A stretch of DNA of 64,000 bases from the NCBI GenBank assembly GCA_001803165.1, contig MHAZ01000012.1:62001-126000 (forward strand), written 5' to 3'. Made by a program: the position numbers and the translations under genes. Every line of letters begins with the position of its first letter. Position 1 is the stretch's first letter. Shown one piece after another: positions 36,280 to 46,477 of the stretch. The DNA is from Stygiobacter sp. RIFOXYC2_FULL_38_25 (GTDB taxonomy: Bacteria; Bacteroidota; Ignavibacteria; Ignavibacteriales; Melioribacteraceae). The notes under the pieces were generated by a model that had not been told where the DNA came from, did not search any database, and saw only the letters and a list, made by a program, of their open reading frames with translations.

Positions 36280-36840
36280 TTATTTCTCCATTTCTTTTAG
36301 CCAATAAATTTGATTTTCCCTTTGCATGATTCCTTCCTCTATCAGCAGTCTTCTAATCGTGCAGTGATCGCCGTAGGTCTCGTTAATCAAACTATCAACT
36401 TCATTTTCCGTGTACGTTTTATTGCTGCTAAACTTCTTAACAAACTCATCAAGGATAATCAGTTTCTTTTTTCTTTGCACCGGCAGCTTTGTAAGCCTTT
36501 TGTTTTGCATAAAATTCTTCAGAACCTTTTGCCGGTATTTTTCAACCCGCTCATCTTGTACAAATTTTTCGATGTTATCAAACGAAGTAAGCTCTCGCAG
36601 AGTGAGATTAAAAATTTCATCATTCACTTGATAGATGATGTAATACTGATCCTTCTTCTTGCAGACCAATCCAGCCTTCTCAAGCTTCTTCAAGTGAAAC
36701 GAAACAGTTGAAACGGCTAGATTGATTCTGTGAGCGAGTTCTTCCACATACTGTGGTTTTTGCAGAACTGCATTAAGAACTTGCAGACGGGAAGTATCCG
36801 CCAGCGATTTCATAATTTCAATACTTTTTGAGATTTCCAT
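36280..36840 (-). CDS. ArsR-type regulator with C-terminal DUF2087 domain
   Basis: 186 residues from the ATG at 36840. The N-terminal winged helix (about 5-85) shows SLADTSRLQVLNAVLQKPQYVEELAHRINLAVSTVSFHLKKLEKAGLV. The C-terminal part is a DUF2087 domain (KLIILDEFVKKFSSNKTYTENEVDSLINETYGDHCTIRRLLIEEGIM). The frame extends to 36873, but that part lies on a palindromic operator, so I prefer the internal start even though no strong ribosome site is visible. It should repress itself and the GIY-YIG gene by binding the twin operators at 36853 and 36906. Confidence 0.85.
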   Translation of the reverse strand: MEISKSIEIMKSLADTSRLQVLNAVLQKPQYVEELAHRINLAVSTVSFHLKKLEKAGLVCKKKDQYYIIYQVNDEIFNLTLRELTSFDNIEKFVQDERVEKYRQKVLKNFMQNKRLTKLPVQRKKKLIILDEFVKKFSSNKTYTENEVDSLINETYGDHCTIRRLLIEEGIMQRENQIYWLKEMEK

Positions 36841-36852
36841 TGCTTTAATATA

Positions 36853-36870
36853 TTTCGATAATTGTCGAAA
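36853..36870. promoter_or_regulatory. Operator O1 of the ArsR/DUF2087 gene
   Basis: TTTCGATAATTGTCGAAA is an 18-bp palindrome (arms TTTCGA/TCGAAA) 13 bp upstream of the proposed start codon. It matches O2 at 36906 in spacing and arms, as expected for a dimeric winged-helix repressor. Confidence 0.65.
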
Positions 36871-36905
36871 CAAAAATAATGTTGAAATCCAGTCTTGTCA
36901 ATCCA

Positions 36906-37046: not shown

Positions 37047-38465
37047 ATGTCAACACAAACACAATTAGCAGTTATTGGCGGCGGACCGGGCGGCTATGCG
37101 GCGGCATTTATAGCGGCTGATCTCGGAATGCAAGTAACATTAATAGATTTGGAAAAAAATCCGGGCGGCGTTTGCCTCTATCGCGGTTGTATTCCTTCCA
37201 AAGCGTTGCTGCATGTTGCTAAACTTATAAATGAAGCAGAAGAAGCAAAAAAATGGGGCGTAGATTTCGGCGAACCGAAAATTGATGTAGCTAAACTGCG
37301 CGATTTTAAGAACGGCGTTGTTACCAAACTTACCAACGGATTAGGTCAGTTAGCTAAGCAAAGAAAAGTAAATTTTATAAATGGTAAGGCGACTTTTGTA
37401 AACTCCAATACACTTTCTGTTGCTAAGGCAGATGGAACTACTGAAGAAGTGGTTTATGAAAAAGCTATTCTCGCAACCGGTTCAGTTCCAACAAAAATCC
37501 CGGGATTATCAATTGATTCGCCGAGAGTAATGGATTCAACTTCCGCGCTTGAATTGAATGATATTCCAAAACGCTTGCTGGTAATTGGCGGCGGGTACAT
37601 AGGCTTAGAACTTTCAACAGTTTACGCTTCTTTAGGTAGTGAAGTAACTGTTGTAGAAATGCTGCCCGGATTATTGCCTGGTGCTGATAGAGACATGGTT
37701 GCGGTTCTCGAACGCAGAGTAAAATCATTAATGAAAAATGTTTTTACAGAAACTAAAGTTGTTGATCTGAAAGACAACGGCGATTCTGTTACTGTTAAGT
37801 TGGAAGGCGCAAAAGTTACTGAGGCGGAACAGACGTTCGATAAAGTTTTGATTTCGATTGGAAGAAGGCCGGTTACAACGGGCTTTGGTTTAGAGAATAC
37901 AAAAGTAAAAGTGAATGAGCGTGGTTTTGTTATCACTGATAAAACTATGAAGACCGACGATACGAGCATTTATGCGATTGGTGATATAGTTGGCAATCCG
38001 ATGCTGGCGCATAAAGCATCGGCAGAAGGTAAAGTCGCTGTTGAAGCAATTCTCGGTCACAAAGTTGCATTTGAGCCAAACGCGATTCCGGCTGTTGTGT
38101 TTACAGATCCGGAATTAGCTTGGGCTGGAATTACAGAAAATGAAGCGCGGGAAAAAGGAATTAAAGTTGAAGTTGCTAAATTCCCTTGGGGCGCAAGCGG
38201 ACGTGCAACTACATTGGATAGAAACGACGGCATGACTAAACTGATTGTAGAGCCGGAAACTGAACGCATTCTTGGCGTTGCTATTGTTGGCGTTGGCGCA
38301 GGCGATATGATTGCAGAAGGTACACTCGCAATTGAAATGGGCGCGGTTGTTAAAGATTTGGAGCTTACAATTCATCCGCATCCAACTCTTTCGGAAACTA
38401 TGATGTTTGCGGCAGAGCTTTATTACGGACACGCAACGGATATGTACCGACCAAAGAGAAAATAA
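37047..38465 (+). CDS. lpd: Dihydrolipoyl dehydrogenase (E3)
   Basis: 472-residue FAD flavoprotein that re-oxidises dihydrolipoamide on E2 proteins and reduces NAD+. It shows the N-terminal FAD dinucleotide motif VIGGGPGGYAAA, the redox disulfide Cys43-Cys48 (GGVCLYRGCIPSKA; Tyr-Arg between the cysteines instead of the usual Asn-Val), the NAD motif VIGGGYIGLELS (about 179), FAD motif YAIGDI, and the C-terminal HPHPTLSE active-site histidine. It stands alone between two minus-strand genes and presumably serves AceE/AceF at 18-22.6 kb and possibly other lipoyl enzymes. AAAGGA lies upstream of the ATG. Confidence 0.96.
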   Translation: MSTQTQLAVIGGGPGGYAAAFIAADLGMQVTLIDLEKNPGGVCLYRGCIPSKALLHVAKLINEAEEAKKWGVDFGEPKIDVAKLRDFKNGVVTKLTNGLGQLAKQRKVNFINGKATFVNSNTLSVAKADGTTEEVVYEKAILATGSVPTKIPGLSIDSPRVMDSTSALELNDIPKRLLVIGGGYIGLELSTVYASLGSEVTVVEMLPGLLPGADRDMVAVLERRVKSLMKNVFTETKVVDLKDNGDSVTVKLEGAKVTEAEQTFDKVLISIGRRPVTTGFGLENTKVKVNERGFVITDKTMKTDDTSIYAIGDIVGNPMLAHKASAEGKVAVEAILGHKVAFEPNAIPAVVFTDPELAWAGITENEAREKGIKVEVAKFPWGASGRATTLDRNDGMTKLIVEPETERILGVAIVGVGAGDMIAEGTLAIEMGAVVKDLELTIHPHPTLSETMMFAAELYYGHATDMYRPKRK

Positions 38466-43169: not shown

Positions 43170-43222
43170 TTCGGTATTATAAGCTAAGTACTATTGATTG
43201 CAATAATATCAACGGATATATC

Positions 43223-45259
43223 ATGAATCGTGTTGAGGCAGAGAAAAAATTAAAGACAATCTTTGGCTTTGAAAATTTTTATGATGAGCAATGGAATACC
43301 ATCAAATTATTGTTTGAAGGTAAAAGAGTACTACTGATTGAGAAAACTGGTTATGGTAAATCACTCTGTTTTCAGTTTCCAGCAACTCAGTGTAGTGGAG
43401 TTACGGTCGTCTTTTCACCCTTAATTGCTTTAATGCGCGACCAAGTTAGGAGCTTAAATGAAAAAGGAATTGCGGCGAAATTTATAAATTCTGAACAAAC
43501 TCAAGAAGAAAATTCAGCTACAATTCAAGATGCCATACAGGGAAAAGTAAAAATATTATACATAGCACCAGAAAGACAAGAAAATCAAGAATGGATAGAC
43601 GCAACTCGGAAAATGAATTTAGCGATGATCGTTATTGATGAAGCTCATACTATTTCGGTTTGGGGGCACGATTTTCGCCCCGCATTTAGAAGAATAATAA
43701 ATTTAGTTCAGTTGTTGCCGAAAAACCTTCCTGTTTTAGCAACTACTGCTACTGCTACCAAAAGAGTCGAAAAAGATATTGAAAAACAAATCTCTGGAGA
43801 TATTGTCACAATTCGCGGTAATTTGATGAGGGAAAACTTACATCTCTTTGTAATCGATGTTAAATCAGAAGATGACAAACTTGTTTGGCTGGGGGATAAT
43901 ATTGCTAAACTACAGGGAAGCGGAATAATCTATACCGGCACAAGAGTTAATACAGAAATTTATTCGAGATGGCTTAATTTCATCAATATTAACTCGGTTG
44001 AATATAATGCGGGTTTAGATGGTGATTCAAGAAAAGAAATTGAAAAGGGTCTGATGTCAAATAAATGGAAGTGTGTTATTTCTACTAATGCTCTTGGAAT
44101 GGGCATTGATAAGCCCGATATTAGGTTTATCATACACACCCAGATTCCAGCTTCGCCAATACACTATTATCAAGAAATTGGGAGAGCTGGTAGAGACGGA
44201 AAACCCACGTATATAATTTTATTTTTTAACTCGACACTGCTAAAAAATAATATTTTTGAAGATGCACAACTCCCAATTGCTTTCATCGAAGGAGGAAGAC
44301 CATCTATTCAAAAATATCAAAGTATAATTGACGCTTTAAAAACACAGCCGCTCGGAGAAAGAGAACTTATCAAAGTAACAAATATGAAGCAGACTCAGAT
44401 ACGAGTTATTAAAGCGGATTTAATTGAGCAAGGGATTGTTAAAGAAGTAGTATATGGACGCTCTAAAAAATACGACTATCAGTTTAACGCTCCTCGATTG
44501 GATACAAAAACGTTCCAAGAATTAAGGGAAATGAAACTCAAAGAATTGGATTCTATGATTGAATACATATTCACAGAAAAATCACGGATGCAATTTCTTT
44601 GTGAGTATTTAGGCGATAGTTACAACAAAATCTTTTCGAATTGCGACAATACAAACCACAAAAAAATTATTTTTGTTCAGAACAAGGAAGTATCAGAAAA
44701 ACTATCGAAATTTAGAGAAACATATTTTCCAGAATTGATTGTTGAATCAAACGATTCAAATATCGTGAACGGTGTTGCATCATCATATTACGGTGCTTCA
44801 AGTGTTGGGGCAGCGATACATAAGAGTAAATATGAAAATGGTGGCGACTTCCCGGACTTTTTGCTAAAGCTGACATTAAAAGCATTTAGAAATAAATACA
44901 GTCAACAAAAATTTGACTACGTTTGTTATGTGCCGCCTACAGAGTCGGGGGACTTAGTTAAAAATTTTGCCGAGAAAATTTCTATTGTTTTAAAAATTCC
45001 AATTACGCATAAATTGAAAAAGATTTCGGTTACAAAACCTCAAAAAATATTTCAAAATAGTTATTTGAAAAAAGACAATGTAAAAGGTGCATTTAGGTAT
45101 GAAAATCCATCAGAAATAAAAAGTAAGGTGATTTTATTACTTGATGACATTTTTGATAGTGGGGCAACCATTAAAGAAATTGGAAGTTTATTTACAAGTT
45201 ATGGGGCAAAAACAATAGCTCCAATAGTCATGGCAAGGACTGTTGGCGGAGATATTTAG
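43223..45259 (+). CDS. RecQ-like helicase fused to a ComF-type phosphoribosyltransferase domain
   Basis: 678 residues. The N-terminal 340 residues are an SF2 helicase of RecQ type: KTGYGKSLCFQFP (Lys47, Walker A), DEAHTISVWGHDFRP (about 138), TATATKRV, STNALGMGIDKPDIRFIIH and QEIGRAGRDGKP (motif VI). The RecQ zinc/RQC and HRDC domains are absent. A winged-helix-like part follows (about 380-430). The C-terminal about 130 residues are a phosphoribosyltransferase-like domain with YVCYVPPTESGD and the PRPP loop LLLDDIFDSGATIKEIGS (about 636-650), as in ComF. It is followed 9 nt later by a dprA-like gene. Base composition is distinctly AT-rich, suggesting transfer. Confidence 0.88.
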   Translation: MNRVEAEKKLKTIFGFENFYDEQWNTIKLLFEGKRVLLIEKTGYGKSLCFQFPATQCSGVTVVFSPLIALMRDQVRSLNEKGIAAKFINSEQTQEENSATIQDAIQGKVKILYIAPERQENQEWIDATRKMNLAMIVIDEAHTISVWGHDFRPAFRRIINLVQLLPKNLPVLATTATATKRVEKDIEKQISGDIVTIRGNLMRENLHLFVIDVKSEDDKLVWLGDNIAKLQGSGIIYTGTRVNTEIYSRWLNFININSVEYNAGLDGDSRKEIEKGLMSNKWKCVISTNALGMGIDKPDIRFIIHTQIPASPIHYYQEIGRAGRDGKPTYIILFFNSTLLKNNIFEDAQLPIAFIEGGRPSIQKYQSIIDALKTQPLGERELIKVTNMKQTQIRVIKADLIEQGIVKEVVYGRSKKYDYQFNAPRLDTKTFQELREMKLKELDSMIEYIFTEKSRMQFLCEYLGDSYNKIFSNCDNTNHKKIIFVQNKEVSEKLSKFRETYFPELIVESNDSNIVNGVASSYYGASSVGAAIHKSKYENGGDFPDFLLKLTLKAFRNKYSQQKFDYVCYVPPTESGDLVKNFAEKISIVLKIPITHKLKKISVTKPQKIFQNSYLKKDNVKGAFRYENPSEIKSKVILLLDDIFDSGATIKEIGSLFTSYGAKTIAPIVMARTVGGDI

Positions 45260-45268
45260 GAAATTATT

Positions 45269-46402
45269 ATGAAACAAGAATATGCATATTGGATGGCTTT
45301 AGCACATCTACCCAAATTGAGCAACAAAATAAAGAATGAATTAATAGTGAAAATATTCCAAGAAGGTCTTTCTATAATAGATTTATTTCAGTTGGATAGA
45401 ATTACTTTAAAAAAGGATTATCTTCTAAATGATAATGAGATAACATTATTAGAAGAATCTAAAAACGATTTGGCTAATTATGCTTTCATTGTTGAAGATC
45501 TACTTGAGCAAGGGTATGATATTATTCCAATCACTTCAGAAAATTATTCTTCCATACTCAAAAATAATTTAAAACGTTCTTATTCACCGCCTGTTATTTA
45601 TACAAAAGGGAATAAGCAAATCTTGAAAGAAAAATCAATAGCTATTGTTGGTTCAAGGGACGCATCCGAAATAGCGTTAAAGTTTACAGACAATGTGGCA
45701 ATGAAAGCAAGCAAAGATTTTAAAGTTGTTGTAAGTGGCTTTGCAAAAGGTGTTGACAAACAAGCATTAGACTCTGCTATCAAATATAATGGCCAAAGCA
45801 TAATAGTTTTGCCTCAAGGGATTATGACTTTCGATTCTGGATTTATTAAATATTATAGGCATATCATAGACGGGAATGTTATAGTGTTAAGTACTTTTTT
45901 TCCTAAAGCACCATGGAATGTAAAATTAGCAATGGCTAGAAATCCAATCATATACGGTTTAGCAGAGGAAATCTATGTTGCTGAGTCGAGTGAAAAAGGA
46001 GGCACTTGGTCTGGAGTTTTGGATGGATTACGGAAGGGACGGAAGATTTTTGTAAGAGAATCAAATCATGCGGAGAAGAATGCAAACAAAATTCTTATTG
46101 AAAAAGGCGCATTGCCAGTTGATTTAGCCGGAAATATTGTTAAACATGTTAGGTACGAACAAATTGAAACGTTTACTCATGTTGTTTCTGAACCTAAAAT
46201 GGAACCCATAGAAACAAAAATTTATGAATTACTCAATGAAGGCGCGTTTACTTCAAAAGAAATTGTAAAAAAATTAAATCTTGATTGGAGCGTTAGAAAA
46301 TTAACTTCTTTTCTAAAATCGCATACTAAGGTTCAGACTATAAACAAGAAACCTTTAAAGTTTACCATCAAACAATTTGAGGAATTTTCATTATTTAACT
46401 GA
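45269..46402 (+). CDS. DprA/Smf-like DNA-processing protein
   Basis: 377 residues. The central Rossmann-like DprA domain (about 95-300) shows PPVIYTKGN, SIAIVGSRDASEIALKF, VVVSGFAKGVDKQALDSAI (typical SGGARGID region, here SGFAKGVD), VLPQGI, and EIYVAESSEKGGTWSGVLDGLRKGR near its end. An N-terminal helical part of 90 residues and a C-terminal winged helix (about 315-360) complete it. Housekeeping DprA loads RecA on incoming DNA; this one is divergent and paired with a RecQ/PRTase gene, so it is probably an accessory paralogue. AGGAAATTATT precedes the ATG. G+C was 17/60 in a counted line (45301-45360). Confidence 0.85.
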   Translation: MKQEYAYWMALAHLPKLSNKIKNELIVKIFQEGLSIIDLFQLDRITLKKDYLLNDNEITLLEESKNDLANYAFIVEDLLEQGYDIIPITSENYSSILKNNLKRSYSPPVIYTKGNKQILKEKSIAIVGSRDASEIALKFTDNVAMKASKDFKVVVSGFAKGVDKQALDSAIKYNGQSIIVLPQGIMTFDSGFIKYYRHIIDGNVIVLSTFFPKAPWNVKLAMARNPIIYGLAEEIYVAESSEKGGTWSGVLDGLRKGRKIFVRESNHAEKNANKILIEKGALPVDLAGNIVKHVRYEQIETFTHVVSEPKMEPIETKIYELLNEGAFTSKEIVKKLNLDWSVRKLTSFLKSHTKVQTINKKPLKFTIKQFEEFSLFN

Positions 46403-46477
46403 AAACGTGTTTCACAATAAATTTTCTAGACACAAGCTGTGGGAAATATACCCTAAGAGATTAACTCTCAATTTCTT

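Follow-up and report, generated by a model that had tools for sequence, protein, structure and literature searches.

In toxin-antitoxin systems of the PsyrTA type (also described as RqlHI), a helicase bearing a phosphoribosyltransferase (PRTase) domain is the toxin and a DprA-like protein is the antitoxin (PMC4670107). According to the experiments described there for Escherichia coli, RqlH is genotoxic without RqlI and requires its PRTase domain for toxicity, a D663A substitution in the pocket for phosphoribosyl pyrophosphate (PRPP) removes the effects on growth, SOS response, and filamentation and leaves viable counts modestly affected, and RqlI binds RqlH and does not need its C-terminal 80 residues for inhibition. 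The related stand-alone PRTase toxin ShosT is reported to disturb purine metabolism, with DNA damage following (PMC12593503), and a DprA-PRTase pair of P2-like phages is reported to protect against T7 and lambda (PMC9122126). Here, we analyzed a pair of genes at positions 43223-46402 of a 64,000-nucleotide (nt) stretch of the Stygiobacter sp. RIFOXYC2_FULL_38_25 genome (contig MHAZ01000012.1, positions 62,001 to 126,000; hereafter the window), which we interpret, with a probability of roughly 0.7, as a horizontally acquired PsyrTA (RqlHI) system with a probable role in abortive infection.

Both genes are intact open reading frames (ORFs) on the forward strand with a spacing of 9 nt (43223-45259 and 45269-46402). 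The first encodes a protein of 678 amino acids (aa) with the Pfam domains DEAD, Helicase_C, and Pribosyltran (30.0 bits at a cut-off of 26.3) and the second a 377-aa protein with DNA_processg_A (130.7 bits), in agreement with an earlier sequence-only reading of this DNA that had described a RecQ helicase-PRTase fusion followed by a DprA-like gene. Profile searches as suggested by that reading returned full-length PADLOC matches, with 881 bits for the first protein on PsyrT (E 1.1e-265, aa 2-677 of 678) and 265 bits for the second on PsyrA (E 3.1e-79). As controls, another RecQ-like protein of the same genome scores 401 bits on PsyrT, and this protein has no space for a PRTase because 474 residues of its 498-aa open frame are matched; the housekeeping DprA of the genome scores 102 bits on PsyrA. 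A relative encoded on an E. coli plasmid reaches 1019 bits on PsyrT and 577 bits on PsyrA, which makes the window pair a divergent member of the family. Judged by these profiles, the pair is PsyrTA (RqlHI), a known kind of system with tested relatives, and it can now be named where the sequence-only reading had been unable to confirm a name or a function. It shares with described PsyrTA the same two proteins, gene order, strand, and domains, including intact helicase and PRTase motifs: a RecQ helicase and a C-terminal PRTase are joined in one toxin chain, the DprA-like gene follows directly downstream on the same strand, and the distribution of the pair is accessory and mobile (see below). The clade of the window copy differs by its divergence, a degenerate zinc-site region, and a QxxLF-like tail on many of its PsyrA proteins that is missing in the plasmid copies of E. 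coli and Acinetobacter. The competence-like module of three DNA-uptake functions that the sequence-only reading had envisioned has to be abandoned, as the architecture is instead that of the PsyrTA/RqlHI toxin-antitoxin system (PMC4670107). The locus comprises the following features:

43172-46477, no strand: 3,306-bp segment flanked by convergent genes and missing at the empty sites of the same genus (flank alignments to genome G004; G005 the same within 2 bases)
43223-45259, plus strand: psyrT (rqlH), 678-aa toxin, a fusion of RecQ-type helicase and phosphoribosyltransferase (PADLOC PsyrT; Pfam DEAD, Helicase_C, Pribosyltran)
43223-44236, plus strand: RecQ helicase core, aa 1-338 (domain matches, alignment, structures)
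43343-43363, plus strand: Walker A motif KTGYGKS, inside the RecQ core
43637-43648, plus strand: DEAH box, inside the RecQ core
44306-44479, plus strand: predicted winged-helix-like segment, aa 362-419 (AlphaFold2 secondary structure; the name winged helix is an interpretation)
44507-44647, plus strand: degenerate RecQ zinc-binding-like region, aa 429-475 (RecQ_Zn_bind below cut-off)
44660-45244, plus strand: phosphoribosyltransferase domain, aa 480-674 (Pribosyltran above and ComF below cut-off; secondary structure)
45143-45169, plus strand: PRPP loop DDIFDSGAT, aa 641-649 (invariant residues in a 19-sequence alignment)
45269-46402, plus strand: psyrA (rqlI), DprA-like antitoxin, 377 aa (PADLOC PsyrA; Pfam DNA_processg_A; fold matches)
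45509-46114, plus strand: DprA core, aa 81-282 (Pfam PF02481, 130.7 bits)
46205-46372, plus strand: C-terminal winged-helix-like domain, aa 313-368 (AlphaFold2; the name winged helix is an interpretation)
46382-46399, plus strand: disordered C-terminal tail EFSLFN, site of a candidate beta-clamp-binding motif (pLDDT, the AlphaFold2 confidence score; tails of relatives)

The helicase and PRTase motifs of the toxin are preserved. The Walker A lysine (K46) and the DEAH box (D139) are intact and invariant in an alignment of the window protein with 18 relatives (19 sequences), as are D641, D642, I643, D645, S646, G647, and T649 of the PRPP loop that the sequence-only reading had rightly called intact. 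K46, D139, and DDIFDSGAT align with the motifs of the E. coli plasmid copy (the reference being this plasmid copy and not the F11 protein), and mutation of residues of this kind is reported to alter RqlH toxicity (PMC4670107). Among solved structures, RecQ catalytic cores (e.g., 4tmu and 1oyw) come closest to the helicase. Of the description as a minimal RecQ, the part that no RQC or HRDC domain is matched in a Pfam scan stands, but the linker to the PRTase is not empty: RecQ_Zn_bind matches below threshold at aa 432-476 (20.9 bits at a cut-off of 25), with SNCDN in the window protein where the E. coli plasmid relative has CGKCENC, and AlphaFold2 secondary structure predicts a helix-strand segment at aa 362-419 that we read as winged-helix-like. 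For the antitoxin, AlphaFold2 predicts N-terminal helices, the DprA core, a disordered linker (aa 293-312), a domain at aa 313-368 that may likewise be read as winged-helix-like, and a disordered tail with pLDDT below 50 at aa 371-377. Its fold matches include DprA (3maj), ShosA (8zva, second-best), and pneumococcal DprA (3uqz).

Another described family that comes close is ShosTA, which also combines a PRTase toxin with a DprA-like antitoxin; the PADLOC ShosA profile gives the window antitoxin 114 bits, and ShosA has a crystal structure (8zva). Unlike the window toxin with its helicase in the same chain, the ShosT model spans only 237 positions and matches just aa 466-674 of PsyrT with 23 bits. 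We therefore rejected an assignment to ShosTA, since helicase and PRTase share one 678-aa chain here and there is no stand-alone PRTase. The ShosA model is not discriminating because it scores the housekeeping DprA of the same genome (L002) at 246 bits, and automated ShosA calls may thus take in ordinary DprA.

The accessory nature of the pair separates it from the housekeeping genes with similar domains. A search for such genes, as proposed in the sequence-only reading, found a separate dprA in this 4.4-Mb genome of 22 contigs (G000:C17:520061-521176), two other RecQ-like proteins on contigs C17 and C4, and a PRTase ORF on contig C3 with a weak match that we took as comF. A housekeeping pair for DNA maintenance or competence of the lineage (recQ-comF-dprA) in place of a toxin-antitoxin system would fit the overlap of domain types with competence proteins, and RqlH without RqlI is reported to be widespread in Gram-positive bacteria (PMC4670107). 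The single-domain folds are indeed shared and the toxin passes the general RecQ-family model TIGR00614 (317 bits at a cut-off of 220), but the scores fall below the curated cut-offs of the specific models for dprA (TIGR00732, 107 of 191 bits), recQ (TIGR01389, 351 of 640 bits), and comF (TIGR00201, 33 of 234 bits). Furthermore, PsyrT is missing in 72 of 79 genomes of the family at a threshold of E 1e-150, whereas dprA is present in 55 of 58 relatives. Given the separate copies in the genome, this pattern of presence and absence, and the empty sites and clear transfer between families described next, we rejected the housekeeping or competence explanation as very improbable.

A search of 58 genomes found full-length PsyrT in 9. 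Profile searches detected PsyrT in 7 of the 79 genomes examined from the family (at the threshold given above) and in 31 of 395 genomes drawn from the phylum, and PsyrA in 17 of 164 order-level and 35 of 391 class-level genomes; all these counts include the own genome. Some class-level relatives seem identical with genomes in records labelled Ignavibacteriae and Kapaibacterium, as PsyrA has equal length and tail in L046 and L145 and likewise in L045 and L142, which suggests a lineage close to Ignavibacteria in the Bacteroidota. None of five other genomes of the same genus carries PsyrT (two of the five being 75-77% complete), and three of them show the empty site: the window flanks align to G004 up to 43171 and from 46478 with the two flank genes abutting, the same two genes abut in G005 with the junction within 2 bases of that in G004, and in G002 both flanks lie ca. 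70 nt apart at a contig end with the pair missing. The other two are uninformative in this respect, G003 because its flank genes lie on different contigs with other neighbors and G001 because it has no close orthologue of either flank gene. The nearest PsyrT, with 91% identity, is encoded in G034, a genome from another family, and the dprA genes of the two genomes share only 58% identity, which indicates horizontal transfer. There is thus neither a single syntenic place held by the pair in all relatives nor a lack of another dprA, and the presence/absence and alignment data describe an accessory, mobile pair that is sporadic in its lineage, much as the sequence-only reading had suspected of this two-gene unit.

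As for carriage on plasmids, 6 of 258 matching records cover 80% of PsyrT. Carriage by phages was considered and rejected, given that none of 27 matching phage records covers 80% of PsyrT and that no PsyrA relative on a viral contig was confirmed in a scan with the PsyrA alignment and two peptide patterns. Integration of the tRNA type was also rejected because the window contains no tRNA genes. The pair is flanked by convergent genes, a TPR gene on one side and one with a sub-threshold outer-membrane-transporter match on the other. With a G+C content of 34.2% for psyrT and 31.7% for psyrA compared to 38.0% for the window minus the insert, the low G+C described in the sequence-only reading is real, but "well below the neighbors" overstates a modest difference that is also seen elsewhere (of 122 segments of 3,180 bp, 3 have a G+C content as low or lower).

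The two genes travel together. All 8 other relatives that encode full-length PsyrT have PsyrA downstream of it. Among named GTDB loci, this holds for 22 of 23, and the contig of the remaining one stops after psyrT (at least one genome belongs to both sets). Four loci deserve mention for their composition. At L035:5250-10016 (labelled Candidatus Altarchaeum), a 1588-aa ORF encodes a fusion of a complete PsyrT with a DinG/XPD-type helicase that has RQC and HRDC domains, i.e., two helicases and a PRTase in one chain, with PsyrA downstream. PsyrTA-type genes also occur in an archaeal-labelled record from an Altiarchaeales bin (L050:1-1559), a haloarchaeal plasmid (L094) has a psyrT listed without an adjoining DprA-like gene, and a 531-aa ORF without Pfam match lies between psyrT and psyrA at L047:10010-11605, possibly an extra component or an insertion.

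We propose that PsyrT of the window would act as a RecQ-type helicase carrying a PRPP-using transferase as its toxic part and that PsyrA, encoded just downstream, would bind and restrain it. Phage infection or DNA damage could upset this complex and release the PRTase, which might then damage DNA or distort the nucleotide pool so that growth of the cell stops and the spread of the phage is limited. PRTase-dependent toxicity, SOS induction, and antitoxin binding were shown by others in relatives and would apply here by analogy, and we infer the trigger, the chemistry of the window copy, and a function in phage defense from there. The role against phages or foreign DNA that the sequence-only reading had thought likely holds up to this extent, with defense by the window copy itself argued by analogy to relatives.

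Several observations weigh against this reading. PsyrT shares only ca. 30-34% identity with the E. coli, Acinetobacter, Nostoc, and haloarchaeal plasmid copies, so the transfer of a mechanism from tested relatives is not certain. Regarding the mechanism itself, the PRTase domain of RqlH alone is reported to be non-toxic, and helicase-dead RqlH mutants are reported to lose viability without being rescued by RqlI (PMC4670107); the helicase must therefore take part in toxicity or its control, and this control is more complex than a simple leash. In genomic context, a survey as suggested by the sequence-only reading bore out the co-occurrence of the two genes but no recurrent defense neighbors: in 126 neighbor proteins of 24 clade loci (up to three mechanically called ORFs on each side plus any in between), each defense model appears in at most 2 proteins among the matches listed (25 of 105 matching families). 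These scattered matches include a type II methyltransferase, a type IV restriction enzyme, a reverse transcriptase, and AbiEi, which led us to reject a location in defense islands, and the window flanks show no recognizable defense genes. This scatter agrees with a reported under-representation of PsyrTA in defense islands, inside which it is described to co-localize with other systems (PMC10924106). Finally, some synteny is possible at one related locus. In 30 other PsyrTA loci, which are mostly short, neighbors do not match window proteins at E 1e-30 except in G049 (PsyrT 58% identical to that of the window), where two genes have window counterparts, one at 37047-38465 and the other ca. 36 kb from the window pair. 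The former reads as lpdA (dihydrolipoamide dehydrogenase; L078:5241-6653 in G049 and 37047-38465 in the window), and its presence near both pairs could reflect either a shared hot spot or chance.

Much of this would suit a selfish or stabilizing toxin-antitoxin element that maintains itself without phage defense, which is the main rival explanation. In the window, the pair was inserted alone, and neither of the genes on its sides is recognizable as a defense gene. Defense neighbors are few around the clade loci, PsyrTA is reported to be under-represented in islands as mentioned above, and PsyrTA of E. coli NILS69 is reported to give no detectable phage protection upon overexpression while slowing growth (PMC12409345). 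Against this stand distant relatives nested in defense loci, one on an E. coli plasmid, where it separates the S and R genes of a type I restriction-modification locus, and one on an Acinetobacter plasmid that is followed by a DUF262 gene and lies between pglX and pglZ of a BREX locus, as well as the protective DprA-PRTase pair of P2-like phages (PMC9122126). We therefore consider self-maintenance without defense unlikely and favor a PsyrTA system that probably acts by abortive infection.

The surprising and new part of our analysis concerns the extreme C-terminus of PsyrA, which is conserved amid variable surroundings in the alignment of relatives. We studied it in 44 clade members (over 350 bits) and 39 other proteins (29 housekeeping DprA and 10 distant PsyrA) after excluding PsyrA ORFs that reach no stop codon within the locus and merging those of at least 85% identity. 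The proteins merged away include L032, which has 317 aa and no motif and shares 91% identity with the motif-bearing L047, and L050, which also has no motif and was merged with L035. A strict motif Q-x-x-[LMI]-[FL] or its six-residue variant lies within the last 14 residues of 25 of the 44 clade proteins. One of the 44, L136, is a 782-aa ORF, and its end cannot be compared with the others. The same motif is absent from all 29 housekeeping DprA and present in 5 of 303 background ORFs, and shuffling of the last 25 residues yielded 0.74 motif tails on average and at most 5 in 2000 trials, a comparison that is not blind because the motif patterns were chosen after the first tails had been inspected. 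Nor are the 44 members phylogenetically independent, as they form 11 clusters at 65% core identity of which 4 contain the strict motif (in 20/28, 3/5, 1/3, and 1/1 members). When tails are anchored on the L-F pair, a glutamine stands at position -3 in 25 of 38 and a glutamate in 5; this glutamine is the only independent evidence in a column statistic so anchored, and the two positions between it and the pair are weakly conserved, with T or S common at -1. The motif can persist without the preceding domain: a winged-helix profile built from the clade matches none of the 10 PsyrA shorter than 340 aa and 32 of the other 34, the DNA just 3' of the ten short stops gives no match to this profile either, and 6 of these 10 keep the strict motif.

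The variants of the tail (QLDLF, QMELF, QQSLF, QEKMF, and QLELTL) resemble the bacterial clamp-binding consensus QL(S/D)LF reported at C-termini (PMC9690074). We tentatively propose, at somewhat less than even odds, that PsyrA of this clade docks on the sliding clamp DnaN by a Q-x-x-L-F tail. This would tether the antitoxin, and with it the pair, to the replication fork and make PsyrTA a replisome-riding guard whose toxin would be released once the clamp is removed or altered, be it by phage takeover or by the collapse of a fork. SocAB and RipAB are described cases of toxin-antitoxin proteins engaging DnaN (PMC9690074; PMC12795458); in those reports the toxin acts on the clamp, whereas here it is the antitoxin that carries the candidate motif, which would serve as a tether. 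In a literature survey covering titles, openings of abstracts, and term counts, we recognized none among the papers listed that connects the sliding clamp with PsyrA or any other DprA-like antitoxin.

Other proteins provide some context for this proposal. The same genome encodes two Y-family polymerases, one with QTDLF at 30-40 residues from its end and one with no such motif in its last 80 residues. A MutS encoded beside a relative's pair has QIDFF, which is outside the strict pattern. The archaeal-labelled L035 and L050, with PsyrA 86% identical to each other, both lack the tail. Archaeal hosts would use PCNA and not the bacterial clamp, so this absence is as docking on the clamp predicts, but the two cases are few, related, and of unverified binning.

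Three findings count against the clamp. The tail of the window copy reads EFSLF(N) with a glutamate where the motif has its glutamine, which makes the case for this copy weaker, the strict motif is missing in 19 of the 44 clade members, and it is also missing in 8 of 10 distant PsyrA including the E. coli and Acinetobacter plasmid copies. The conserved tail could alternatively be a docking peptide for PsyrT or another partner, in line with the shortness of the motif, the missing glutamine of the window copy, and the fact that conservation alone names no partner. Yet E. coli RqlI is reported to restrain RqlH without its C-terminal 80 residues (PMC4670107), and the tail therefore probably serves a partner other than the toxin; the resemblance of its variants to the beta-clamp consensus (PMC9690074) and the motifs of the polymerase and MutS just described also speak for the clamp. 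A docking peptide of this other kind is a real if rather doubtful possibility. Docking on the sliding clamp is directly testable, and an antitoxin riding the clamp would show where PsyrTA sits and what releases its toxin and would link DprA-type antitoxins to the surveillance of replication forks. Without the clamp, the window pair would be an ordinary, well-formed member of a catalogued defense family that is sporadic in its lineage.

A separate group of distant PsyrA proteins of 332 aa (L103, L105, L109, and L121) carries QVSLDLF, QVSLGLF, QDSIGLF, or EISIGLF near the end. These tails resemble six-residue clamp-binding motifs and are possibly an independent occurrence, with L103 fitting the strict pattern and L109 not. 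Elsewhere in the window, an ORF on the minus strand (36283-36873) encodes an ArsR-type helix-turn-helix protein with a DUF2087 domain and adjoins an uncharacterized 118-aa ORF.

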